Shown here: piece after piece, positions 52,902-57,941 of the stretch | Position numbering within the stretch: position 1 is the stretch's first letter | How the letters are laid out: every line of letters begins with the position of its first letter | Origin: Selenomonadaceae bacterium | GTDB lineage: Bacteria > Bacillota > Negativicutes > Selenomonadales > Selenomonadaceae | Assembly: GCA_030523645.1 (NCBI GenBank) | Contig: JAUNIB010000001.1 | Coordinates: 1-64,000, forward strand | Direction: 5' to 3' | Length of the DNA: 64,000 nucleotides | The notes under the pieces: generated by a model | Database searches by the model: none | What the model was told of the DNA's origin: nothing | The model's input: the letters and a program-made list of their open reading frames with translations, nothing else | Program-made: the position numbers and the translations under genes

Positions 52902-52975
52902 CCCCCGCGGTTTGAAATGAGATTTAATGCCCGCTGTATACGGACATATCCGACAAGCACCGCCGACCACTAAAG

Positions 52976-53022
52976 ACCTTCCCCTCTGGGGAAGGTGGCA
53001 GCCGCAGGCTGACGGATGAGGT
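52976..53022. repeat. interspersed palindromic repeat, family A (inverted)
   Basis: ACCTTCCCC/GGGGAAGGT, GGCAGCC-gca-GGCTG, ACGGATGAGGT. A further CCGCCC/GGGCGG hairpin follows at 53028-53046. The rest of 52716-53127 shows only the direct repeat and promoter. Confidence 0.85.
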
Positions 53023-53127
53023 TGTGTCCGCCCATTTCAAGGGCGGTGGTGGGTTCGTCTGCCGACGATGACGGATAAGGTAACACAGTCAACAACTGCA
53101 ATTTACATAGACAACGGAGGAACAACC

Positions 53128-56030
53128 ATGAAACTTATGAGCAACCTGAAGAAGAAGCATATTTGCGCCGCCATCCTATGCGGATTTGTGTTCGCCGGGG
53201 GGGACACTGGGAGAAGGCTGAGGCGGCAGATGACACCATTTATGCTGTAACAGAAGGCGGTGCGCCTGAAATTACAGGAGTAAAGGCCGAGGGTGATACC
53301 CTTATTCTTATTGGTACGACTGGGAACATACCTGATAAGGTGAAGGCATCAGATGTCGTTTTTACCGTTTCAGGCGCATCGTGGAGCAATGTATATGGCG
53401 GAATAAATAGCATAAAAAACATTGGCAATGCAGAAAACAATAGCATAACCATTACCGGCGATGCAGTAGTATATAATGTTTATGGCGGTTACACTAACAA
53501 TAGTGCAAAAGCCGAAAATAATACAGCAGTTATCAGCGGAGGTACAGTTAATGGAGTCGTTTATGGCGGATACTCTTTCAACGGTGGTGCTGCTAATCTC
53601 AATAGGGGAATCATCAGCGGAGGTACAGTTAACGGAGACATTTATGGTGGATACGCCAGGACCGATTCTGCTAATAAAAATCAGGTGATTATCAGCGGCA
53701 CGGCAGATATTAATTCAAGTACAATTTATGGCGGTTATTCCGAGGCTGCTAACAATACGGTTGATGGCAATAGTGTAACGATTGAAGGCGGTACTTTTAC
53801 AGGCGCCAAGGTGATTTATGGCGGCTGGACAAAAGGCTACGGAAGCGGATTTGGCGAGACGAATGGCATCGCACAGAACAACACTGTAACTGTCAAAGAT
53901 GGTACCTTTAATCACAAGGTAAACATTTATGGCGGTTATTCCGGTTACGGCATTGCTTCCGGCAATAAGGCGGTTATCAGCGGAGGTAAGGTTGGCAACG
54001 TTTATGGCGGCAGTAGTCACAGTTATGCCAGCGGCAATAGTGTAAATATCAGCGGCGGCATTATTGGAGATGGAAGCGACTTTGTTTATGGCGGCAGCAG
54101 CAACAACCTTGCTGAAAAGAATGAGGTAAATGTCAGCGGCGGCTCTATTACAATCAAGGGGCTTTATGGCGGGTATTCCAATAATTCATCGGTCAAAAAC
54201 AATGTGGTAAATATCAGCGATGGCTCTGTTACAGGTTCTGGCAGAGACGGATCTGACGGGCTTGGCGGCGGGCATGCCGGTACTTACGGCACTGCCGAAG
54301 GAAATGTAGTAAATATCAGCGGTGGTACCTTTAAAGATATTAATATTTACGGTGCTTATAGCACTTATGCCGCCAGCAACAATGCCGTGAATATCAGCGG
54401 CGGAAGCTTTACCGATGTGGATGTCTACGGCGGCTATTCATCAAATCGCCCTGCTACCAACAACACTGTAACCATTGCCAATGGAACAGTTAATGGCAGT
54501 GTCTACGGCGGTAAAGGTAATCCTACACCTACATCCCCCATGGCAAACACCATCACTCTGGGAGATATAAATGATACCAATGGTCATGCCAATATCAAGC
54601 TGAATGTTTATCCGAATATAAATACTGCTGGTAGTCCAATCCTCGGTGGCGGCACCGTCAATGTTTACAACACAGGGAACATGATAGGCCGTTACCTCTC
54701 TGTTATCCCTTCTTCTGAAATGAGTGCTACCCTTAACTTCTACATCAATGCCGCTGATATGGATGCGACAGGTAGCAAGACCATGCTGACTGTTGAAAAA
54801 GAGGCTCAGGTAAACGGTACTACCATCTACGCCGGTGTGCGGAATGTCGGCAGTGTCAAGGCAGGCGATAAAATCACTCTGCTGCAAGCGGGAACAGCGG
54901 GAAAATTGACTGTTAATGAATTCACCACCTACAATACGATGTCCAGCGATGGCATAATGAAGGTAGACCTTGACTTCAAACTTTATGAAGGTGATAGAGA
55001 GGTACCGATTCCTACCACAGGAATGTTAACAAACGGCAAGCTCATCGCCATCGCTAAGAACGACGGCACACCTGACAACAGCCCGGACAGCGCCGCCAAG
55101 TCCCCGGTAGAGACAATGGCCGCCAGCGTTTCCCTCATCAACGCCGGTGCCGACATGATGGCCGGGGAGGCCATGACCGGTGCCGCTCAGTCCACTGCTA
55201 TCTCTGCTGCCGAGGGCAGTGCCTCCACTCTCGCTCCCTTCGCCGCTGTCGGCGGCAGCAAGACCAGAGTCGAGTCCGGCTCCCATGTAGACCTGAAGTC
55301 ATGGAATGTGGCGGTAGGCTTCGCCAAGGAAGTAGAGAACAAGCAGGGCAAGCTGATGTTCGGCCCTGTCGTCGAGTACGGCCGCGGCAGCTATGACTCC
55401 TACCTGGACAATGGCACCCACGGCGACGGAACCAGCAGCTTCCTCGGTATCGGCGTCATGGCGAAGCAGACCAACAAGGACGGTCTCTACTACGAAGGCT
55501 CCCTCCGGGGCGGCCGCGCCAAGAGCGACTACAGCAGCAACTTCACCGGCGTGGATAATGTAAACTACGATACCAGCGCCGCCTACTACGCTATGCATCT
55601 CGGTGTAGGCAAGGTAGTGAAGCTGGATGAGCATGACTCACTCGACTACTACGGCAAGCTCTTCTACAGCCATCAGGCAGGAGACCGAGCCCACCTCAGC
55701 AACGGCTACGACTACGACTTCAAGGCGGTTGACTCCATCCGTACCCGCCTCGGTGTCCGCTATACTCACAAGATAAATGACAAGAGCAGCATCTATACCG
55801 GCCTCGCGTGGCAGCATGAGTTCGACAGCAAGGCAAAGGCGACCATCATCAGCGGCGGCACTTCCTTCGATGCGCCCTCTCCCTCTATCAAGGGCGATAC
55901 CGGTATCTTCGAGCTGGGCTGGAAGATAAAGCCGGGCAAGGGTAACTTCGAGACTGGTCTCGGTCTCACCGGGTCGGTGGGCAAGCAGCGCGGCATCGGC
56001 CTCAATGCTCAGTTCCAGTGGATGTTCTGA
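53128..56030 (+). CDS. autotransporter adhesin-like protein, frame broken at a G7 tract
   Basis: From ATG 53128 (GGAGG upstream) a signal peptide MKLMSNLKKKHICAAILCGF leads to a run of seven G (53197-53203). The frame then ends at a stop near 53250, while the next frame continues for 2.8 kb. One extra G gives F-A-G-G-G-H-W-E-K-A-E-A-A-D, with a signal cleavage site at AEA/AD, and a protein of about 967 residues. The passenger has a dozen copies of a 25-35 residue unit (VNISGGS..., VYGGYS), a beta-helix pattern. From about residue 700 a C-terminal autotransporter barrel follows, ending QFQWMF with the terminal Phe of outer-membrane proteins. As written it is out of phase: either phase variation or a sequence error. 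Confidence 0.88.
53197..53203 (+). repeat. G7 homopolymer in signal peptide region
   Basis: Seven G residues between codons 23 and 26 of the autotransporter. Eight (or five) would join the signal peptide to the passenger; seven leaves it out of frame. Confidence 0.9.
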
Positions 56031-56033
56031 CGA

Positions 56034-56084
56034 ACCCTCCACCATGCTTCGCATGGTCCCCCTCCCTGCACGCAGGGAGGACTA
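56034..56084. repeat. palindromic repeat, family B variant
   Basis: CCCTCCACCATGCTTCGCATGG then CCCCTCCCTGCACGCAGGGAGG: same two-hairpin plan as family B, with paired changes. Confidence 0.7.
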
Positions 56085-56104
56085 CGCACCGCCAACACCC
56101 AAAT

Positions 56105-56151
56105 ACCTTCCCCTATGGGGAAGGTGGCAGCCGAAGGCTGACGGGTGAGGT
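56105..56151. repeat. interspersed palindromic repeat, family A (inverted)
   Basis: ACCTTCCCCTATGGGGAAGGT, GGCAGCC-gaa-GGCTG, ACGGGTGAGGT. Confidence 0.88.
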
Positions 56152-56156
56152 AATAT

Positions 56157-56207
56157 AACCTCACCCACCGGCTTCGCCGGTCCCCCCTCTCCAGAGGAGA
56201 GGGTCAC
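56157..56207. repeat. interspersed palindromic repeat, family B (inverted)
   Basis: AACCTCACCCACCGGC-ttc-GCCGGT then CCCCCTCTCCAGAGGAGAGGG. With its neighbours it fills most of the 56031-56402 gap. Confidence 0.88.
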
Positions 56208-56267
56208 GCACCGCCAACAACTAAAAAGGCACACCTATAGGGGAGACTTTAATATTACTAATTTCCA

Positions 56268-56301
56268 GTGCCACCGGCGACATTTCCGGTGGCACATTTT
56301 T
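56268..56301 (+). terminator. intrinsic terminator downstream of autotransporter
   Basis: GTGCCACCGG (56268-56277) pairs with CCGGTGGCAC (56286-56295), followed by ATTTTTAAT. Confidence 0.85.
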
Positions 56302-56402: not shown

Positions 56403-57941
56403 ATGTTTGCAAGGACATACGGCGCGACTACACAGGGCGTTGACGGTTTTATCATTGATGTAGAGGTGGATGTCTCTGCCGGTATGCCGGGGACGGATAT
56501 CGTAGGTATGCCTGACACCGCTGTCCGTGAGTCCAAGGAGCGGGTACGCACTGCTATAAAGAACTCAGGCATAAGGTATGCCCCGCAGAAAGTGACGATA
56601 AACCTCGCTCCCGCGGATATAAAGAAAGACAGCTCCGGCCTCGACCTGCCGATGGCTCTCGGTCTGCTTATCGCCCACGGTCTCGTAAAGCAGGAGCGCG
56701 TGGAGGGGGCAATATTTGCGGCGGAGCTTTCACTGGAGGGAGAACTTCGCGGTATTCACGGCATCCTGCCTATGACGATAAAGGCTCGGGATAAGGGCTT
56801 TAAGAAGATTTTCCTCGCTGCTGACAACGCCAATGAGGCTCTGCTGGTGGAGGGAATAGAGGTCTATGCTGTCCGACGGCTCTGTGAGCTGGTAGACGGA
56901 CTTAACGGTGTCGGGGCGCTGAGTCCGGTGGTGCCGGTTGAGGCGGCAGAGGATGTGCCGGAGCTGATGGAGGATGATTTTGCCGATGTTCAGGGTCAGT
57001 TTCAGGCGAAGCGGGCCTTGGAGATTGCCGCCGCCGGCGGTCACAATGTGCTGATGGCCGGCTCTCCCGGCGCAGGCAAAACAATGCTGGCTCGGCGTTT
57101 CCCTTCGATTCTTCCAGCTATGACCGGGGCGGAGGCGTTGGAGGTCACAAAGATATACAGTATCGCCGGTCTTCTCTCTGGGGGCAGCGGTCTCGTGACG
57201 AAGCGGCCTTTCCGCAGTCCTCATCATACAACCTCCGCTACGGCAATCATCGGCGGCGGCAGTGTACCAAGACCCGGTGAGGTCACTCTCAGCCATCACG
57301 GAGTATTGTTCCTGGATGAGCTGCCGGAGTTTTCCAAGCAGACCCTTGAGGTGCTGCGTCAGCCCATTGAAGATGGCAAGGTGACTGTTTCCCGCGTCCA
57401 TGCTTCGCTGACATTTCCGTCTCAGTGTATTCTGATAGCGGCGATGAATCCCTGTCCCTGCGGCTGGCAGGGAGACAGCAGTCACGCCTGCAGTTGTCTG
57501 CCCAATGAGATAAAGCGTTATACCCGGAAGATTTCCGGACCGCTGCTGGACAGGATAGATATTCATATCAGAGTGCCGCGGGTGGAGTACAAGGAACTGA
57601 CGGCGGAGACAAAGGCTGAGTCCTCGGCCGCGATAAGGGCGCGGGTCACCGCCGCCCGGCAGCGGCAGCTGGAGCGCTTCTCGGTTATGGGCAGCAATGT
57701 TTTCTGCAATGCCCAGATGAATCATGCCATGCTGAAGAAGACCTGCCATCTGACGCCGGCCGCCCAGAATCTCTTAGCCAGCTTCTTTGCAGCGAAGAAT
57801 CTTTCCGCCCGTTCCTACGACCGGATTATCAAGGTGGGAAGAACCATTGCCGACCTGGCAGGGGAGAACAACATTACCGAGCGGCATATTGCGGAGGCAA
57901 TTCAGCTTCGCAACGACATCGGTCTGGATGCCGGCTGCTGA
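56403..57941 (+). CDS. comM: YifB/ComM family Mg-chelatase-like AAA ATPase
   Basis: 512 residues. An N-terminal Lon-like (ChlI) domain (MFARTYGATTQGVDGFIIDV) is followed by an AAA core: Walker A AGSPGAGKTMLARR, Walker B VLFLDELPEFS, and ARR/sensor parts; CPCGWQGDSSHACSC is a conserved cysteine-rich insert. ComM is a hexameric branch-migration helicase aiding DNA integration in transformation. GGGGAGAG precedes ATG 56403. Apparently single-gene. Confidence 0.95.
   Translation: MFARTYGATTQGVDGFIIDVEVDVSAGMPGTDIVGMPDTAVRESKERVRTAIKNSGIRYAPQKVTINLAPADIKKDSSGLDLPMALGLLIAHGLVKQERVEGAIFAAELSLEGELRGIHGILPMTIKARDKGFKKIFLAADNANEALLVEGIEVYAVRRLCELVDGLNGVGALSPVVPVEAAEDVPELMEDDFADVQGQFQAKRALEIAAAGGHNVLMAGSPGAGKTMLARRFPSILPAMTGAEALEVTKIYSIAGLLSGGSGLVTKRPFRSPHHTTSATAIIGGGSVPRPGEVTLSHHGVLFLDELPEFSKQTLEVLRQPIEDGKVTVSRVHASLTFPSQCILIAAMNPCPCGWQGDSSHACSCLPNEIKRYTRKISGPLLDRIDIHIRVPRVEYKELTAETKAESSAAIRARVTAARQRQLERFSVMGSNVFCNAQMNHAMLKKTCHLTPAAQNLLASFFAAKNLSARSYDRIIKVGRTIADLAGENNITERHIAEAIQLRNDIGLDAGC

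Follow-up and report, generated by a model that had tools for sequence, protein, structure and literature searches.

An autotransporter gene of a Selenomonadaceae bacterium very probably has an on/off switch that works through slipped-strand variation in the length of a G tract at its signal peptide. The gene lies in the window analysed here, a 64,000-nt stretch that forms the first part of contig C9; the genome comprises 2.31 Mb, divided over 15 contigs. It encodes a classical autotransporter, for which we infer a probable function as an adhesin. Under the proposed mechanism, slipped-strand mispairing during replication would alter the length of a tract encoding Gly-Gly(-Gly) close to where the signal peptide ends, and one register in three would link the signal to the passenger. 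In that register, the Sec signal, passenger and barrel would form one protein, which is predicted to reach the surface; out of register, as in the assembled sequence, only a 40-residue peptide would be made. Slippage in the living population, its reversibility and surface display of the product are predictions from the DNA sequence.

A frame break at the signal peptide of a type Va autotransporter

Direct reading places the start codon, ATG, at 53128-53130, with GGAGG at 53116-53120 just 5' of it. Translation in the ATG frame gives a 40-aa product, MKLMSNLKKKHICAAILCGFVFAGGDTGRRLRRQMTPFML, with a stop that ends at 53250. Its leading part, MKLMSNLKKKHICAAILCGFVFAGG, has the lysine-rich N-terminal start and hydrophobic core of a typical Sec signal, as assessed by eye and by comparison with paralogues. 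The passenger/barrel frame, which contains ...EKAEAADDTIYAV, is open from 5' of the G tract to a stop at 56028-56030 and is undamaged, with 955 codons open. The first-pass annotation had placed the signal peptide and the passenger/barrel in separate frames, with the break on seven consecutive G residues; direct reading of the assembled sequence, with translation, confirmed each of these points, including the exact count of seven G, and placed the AEA/AD site in the passenger frame.

Given the promoter-like site 5' of the gene (such sites number 8 in the scanned region, against 4.3 expected) and the terminator-like hairpin 3' of it (Table 1), the autotransporter gene appears to form a transcription unit of its own. 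It is flanked on the left by a divergent gene and on the right by an ORF at 56403-57941. No Rfam families were found in the window. An intergenic palindromic repeat, ccttcccc...ggggaaggtggc...gacggatgaggt with the companion ccaccggcttcgccggtcccccc, occurs on both sides of the gene (52970-53060 and 56030-56210) and recurs several times elsewhere in the parts of the genome that were read.

Evidence for the class of the protein came from a paralogue and from structure prediction. A Pfam and NCBIfam search with the window protein matched no model, including PF03797 and TIGR01414; the paralogue at C9:198745 matches both of these models, and it aligns to residues 320-955 of the window protein (E 2e-83). 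An AlphaFold model of the last 496 residues, built from an alignment of six sequences, predicts one long helix together with about 12 strands, with confidence that is low overall (mean pLDDT 48; barrel mostly 50-80). When the model was compared with the PDB using Foldseek, the top matches were autotransporter barrels: BrkA (E 7e-10, TM 0.82 by target length), followed by EspP and EstA, and then by the AIDA-I, NalP and Hbp barrels. These data indicate that the window barrel folds like solved autotransporter barrels. The hallmarks of type Va proteins include a 12-strand barrel with a helix through its pore, both of which appear in the model with moderate confidence for the barrel, and an aromatic last residue, here the final Phe of ...QWMF. 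They also include a Sec signal joined to the passenger and barrel; the signal is present in the window gene, out of register as assembled, and is joined in four paralogues. The window protein is a classical (type Va) autotransporter, and the first-pass annotation was right about both the gene type and the class of the organism (Negativicutes); the family is Selenomonadaceae. The window gene is read as an off allele of a type Va protein, with the frame break being the proposed switch itself.

Table 1. Features of the window gene, paralogues in the same genome, and signal-peptide tracts by reading state. Positions without a contig name are those of the window; labels of the form G028 denote relatives and precede the tract.
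Feature	Position	Strand	Basis or remark
Promoter-like site TTGATA-17-TG-TAAAAT, about 230 nt 5' of start codon	52873..52901	+	consensus match only
Ribosome-binding site GGAGG	53116..53120	+	equal spacing in paralogues
Signal-peptide frame MKLMSNLKKKHICAAILCGFVFAGG, then out-of-frame tail and stop	53128..53250	+	reading, translation; paralogues
G7 tract, proposed slippage switch	53197..53203	+	direct reading; paralogue runs G10, G7, G6 at same site
Mature autotransporter frame (AEA/AD cleavage region, passenger, linker helix, barrel)	53204..56030	+	intact, open, out of register with ATG
Passenger, about 12 repeats of type [VIL]YGG...NN.V.I.GG	53391..54614	+	positions of YGG motifs
Helix predicted through barrel pore	55104..55205	+	model residues 189-222, low to moderate confidence
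C-terminal beta-barrel, about 12 predicted strands, last residue Phe	55233..56027	+	model and Foldseek
Intrinsic-terminator-like hairpin 3' of gene	56268..56295	+	sequence scan
Paralogue, G10	C5:1134	-	out of frame, 34-aa product
Paralogue, G7 with different flanking bases	C6:1247	-	in frame
Paralogue, G6	C6:88257		in frame
Paralogue, Met-Gly-Gly-Gln at same place, G run broken	C9:198745		in frame
Paralogue, Met-Gly-Gly-Gln at same place, G run broken	C5:24167		in frame
Out-of-frame tracts, own genome			window G7; C5 G10
Out-of-frame tracts, relatives			G028: G11 and G10; G027: G9; G021: G8; G179: G9; G082: G10 twice; G078: C9
In-frame tract, own genome			C6 G7
In-frame G tracts			G032: G9; G017: G10; G021: G7; G063: G7; G030: G8; G175: G8; G179: G8 and G9; G170: G8; G081: G10
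In-frame C tracts			G019: C10; G183: C11; G078: C10
Tract of unclear state			G078: G9 (L259)

Tracts in paralogues and across the family

Five other genes of the genome share this signal peptide or have one that closely resembles it, and in four of these paralogues the signal sequence is closely similar and in frame. The first-pass annotation had pointed to homologues as the place to look for the homopolymer, and it was found there: the codon position that holds the tract in the window gene holds G10, G7 or G6 in paralogues, and relatives in about ten other genera have signal-peptide runs ranging over G7-G11 or C9-C11, some in the on and some in the off register. Among the paralogues, one peptide motif is encoded with and without an uninterrupted G run, and the uninterrupted runs vary in length and state. 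The window gene belongs to this set of genes, which includes some with uninterrupted runs of varied length and state, together with two broken-run genes, C9:198745 and C5:24167, that under the proposed mechanism would be locked on.

DNA conservation among the paralogues is about 82-88% at the gene start and up to 97% at the barrel start, while the passengers diverge. Three contig ends (C5:1, C6:1 and C6:89374; L078, L080 and L081) lie within autotransporter paralogues, in the conserved stretch where linker and barrel begin, with up to 97% DNA identity to the window gene over 156 nt. This points to homogenised barrels and, possibly, passenger exchange. Two large adhesins of this one genome each have a single amber codon: an autotransporter paralogue of the window protein (C12:19055-22162, L084) is broken by one in-frame TAG, and a two-partner-secretion-like haemagglutinin ORF (C9:319618-325000, L095) has a single in-frame TAG at 320266-320268 (EILF*TMNLW).

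A signal-peptide G or C run of at least seven was found in 25 of 155 autotransporter ORFs of the family, from about 11 genera, and about 84% of the sampled ORFs have no tract. The signal-peptide frame was read by eye and then checked by translation; 14 tracts proved to be in frame and 10 out of frame, with 1 of unclear state. In length comparisons that cover paralogues and between-species homologues, with one genome per species, G10 and G7 occur at the same site in close homologues of a single genus, both in frame, and close homologues with a C tract have C10 in frame, C9 out of frame and a broken C5 in frame. The C9-C11 tracts lie just 5' of the signal peptide (L139 in G019, L237 and L262 in G078, and L194 in G183) and occur in and out of frame; in the orthologues of these genes from G081, G086, G087 and G089, a broken C5 takes the place of the tract. 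A scan of genome contigs with the window protein found no relative, and a scan with the paralogue alignment found only Selenomonas ruminantium homologues, which lack the tract but helped to assign the family.

Contingency genes are recognised here by a homopolymer of at least seven G or C inside the 5' coding region, a cut-off taken from PMC6321876, the length of which sets the frame. The window gene has such a run (G7 at 53197-53203), and both registers occur among its homologues, which supports the interpretation, offered in the first-pass annotation, that this is a phase-variation tract. With rather less confidence than for the window gene, we favour a broader reading for the Selenomonadaceae, a family of outer-membrane Firmicutes: phase-variable autotransporters would occur throughout the family, the stretch that closes the hydrophobic core of the signal peptide having repeatedly turned into a G-tract switch, while some genes would have a C-tract switch directly 5' of the signal peptide. 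Several genes per genome, with shared barrels, divergent passengers and differing on/off states, would then provide combinatorial surface variation.

Background frequency of G runs and alternative readings

G runs of at least seven occur 39 times in the 2.3 Mb genome (overlapping matches, both strands), and they are found at the same place in three genes with a window-type signal peptide. Evidence that such runs are concentrated at autotransporter starts came from two samples. The first, which follows barrel similarity and is not a random draw, took the surroundings of 55 autotransporter ORFs from this genome and its relatives and set these ORFs against 238 other ORFs from the same regions, with a search range of 120 nt before to 240 nt after each open-frame start. 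Runs of at least eight G were found near the start of 8/55 autotransporter ORFs versus 0/238 others (Fisher p = 1e-6), and runs of at least nine near the start of 6 versus 0. The per-base rate of G runs inside autotransporter bodies is about 40 times lower than at the starts. In the second sample, also drawn by barrel similarity rather than at random, 100 autotransporter starts from the family contained 12 G or C runs of at least eight, versus 0.33 expected.

A search of 189 genomes for G7 followed after 0-15 nt by Ala-Glu-Ala gave mostly unrelated genes and was not clearly enriched over a reversed control, so the survey was redone starting from autotransporter ORFs. A separate candidate for phase variation is a 425-aa ORF without known function (C11:144179-145454, L088), which has G8 and C8 in frame.

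No part of an assembly is less certain than its homopolymer counts, and G-tract lengths in databases may differ from those in the population (PMC9187656). The homopolymer in the window gene might have been miscounted in assembly or sequencing, in which case the gene would truly be in frame and its product made constitutively. However, at least 14 other G7 or G8 runs inside ORFs of this genome all leave the ORF in frame, indicating that miscounting of such runs is not a general fault of the assembly. Moreover, out-of-frame tracts recur at exactly the same place in independent assemblies from many genera, and a count that is off by one would still leave long uninterrupted runs to be explained in many homologues. 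We consider a miscount unlikely.

We regard as very improbable a dead gene, in which a one-off frameshift marks a decaying autotransporter. Lineage-specific decay through frameshifts and stops is described for Campylobacter capC and capD (PMC7168839), and two other adhesin genes of this genome have an in-frame TAG, but the remaining 955 codons of the window gene are open, neither its ribosome-binding site nor its signal peptide is damaged, and the frame is lost exactly at a tract whose length varies in homologues. While an error or a one-off pseudogene is possible for the count in the window gene alone, it leaves the pattern unexplained. The tract pattern in the paralogues and the family is what slipped-strand phase variation predicts, and little of it would follow from a single assembly error or a dead gene. 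Least probable of all is ribosomal or transcriptional slippage giving constitutive low-level expression from unchanged DNA, since a G run can in principle be slippery for polymerase or ribosome but the locked Gly-Gly versions in paralogues, and lengths of 6-11 in and out of frame, are a better fit to variation in DNA length.

In Campylobacter G tracts, seven is the lower cut-off and switching has been demonstrated from eight upwards (PMC6321876), while the meningococcal nalP and mspA tracts reach down to 6 (PMC3723659). Given that G7 is at the short end relative to the lengths of eight or more with measured switching, the window allele may switch slowly.

Known switches and significance for diderm Firmicutes

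Neisseria meningitidis NalP and MspA are phase-variable autotransporters with poly-C in the coding sequence (PMC3723659). The window gene resembles them in being an autotransporter gene with a coding-sequence homopolymer (6-15 in the meningococcal genes) that would be ON in one of three registers (PMC3723659). In contrast, their tracts are poly-C, they belong to Proteobacteria, and their switching has been shown by tract sizing and immunoblot, whereas the tract described here is poly-G and its switching is predicted from sequence. Campylobacter has autotransporters with a G tract in the coding sequence (capD) or upstream (capC) (PMC7168839). The parallels are an autotransporter family with a shared barrel, divergent passengers and a coding-sequence G tract in some members and not in others; Campylobacter belongs to another phylum, however, and the comparison with capD covers the presence of a tract in the coding sequence.

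The sortase pilins bbr_0113 and bbr_1889 of Bifidobacterium breve have an intragenic G tract, and their tract lengths have been measured in populations (PMC9187656). As proposed for the window gene, the G tract in this gut commensal parts an ORF for the Sec signal from the rest of a surface protein, and slippage joins them (PMC9187656). Unlike the window gene, these genes encode Gram-positive pilus subunits and not autotransporters. Bordetella pertussis reportedly undergoes phase variation by a homopolymeric tract (PMC1891110); slippage at a homopolymer tract as the switch is shared, and the genes and the lineage differ.

No report of repeat-driven phase variation was found for Selenomonas, Veillonella, Megamonas or other Negativicutes, which is weak evidence given that subscription journals were mostly outside the search. 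The mechanism is known elsewhere and, within the literature searched, the lineage is new; the family-wide recurrence of tracts is the more interesting part. Slippage-controlled surface proteins are known mostly in proteobacterial pathogens. A 2025 review noted that the apparent restriction of such switches may reflect where they have been searched for (PMC11868660). If the proposed switch is real, automatic annotation may call such genes broken in error. Several switched autotransporters per genome in Selenomonas-like Firmicutes would, if confirmed, extend this strategy to the diderm Firmicutes.
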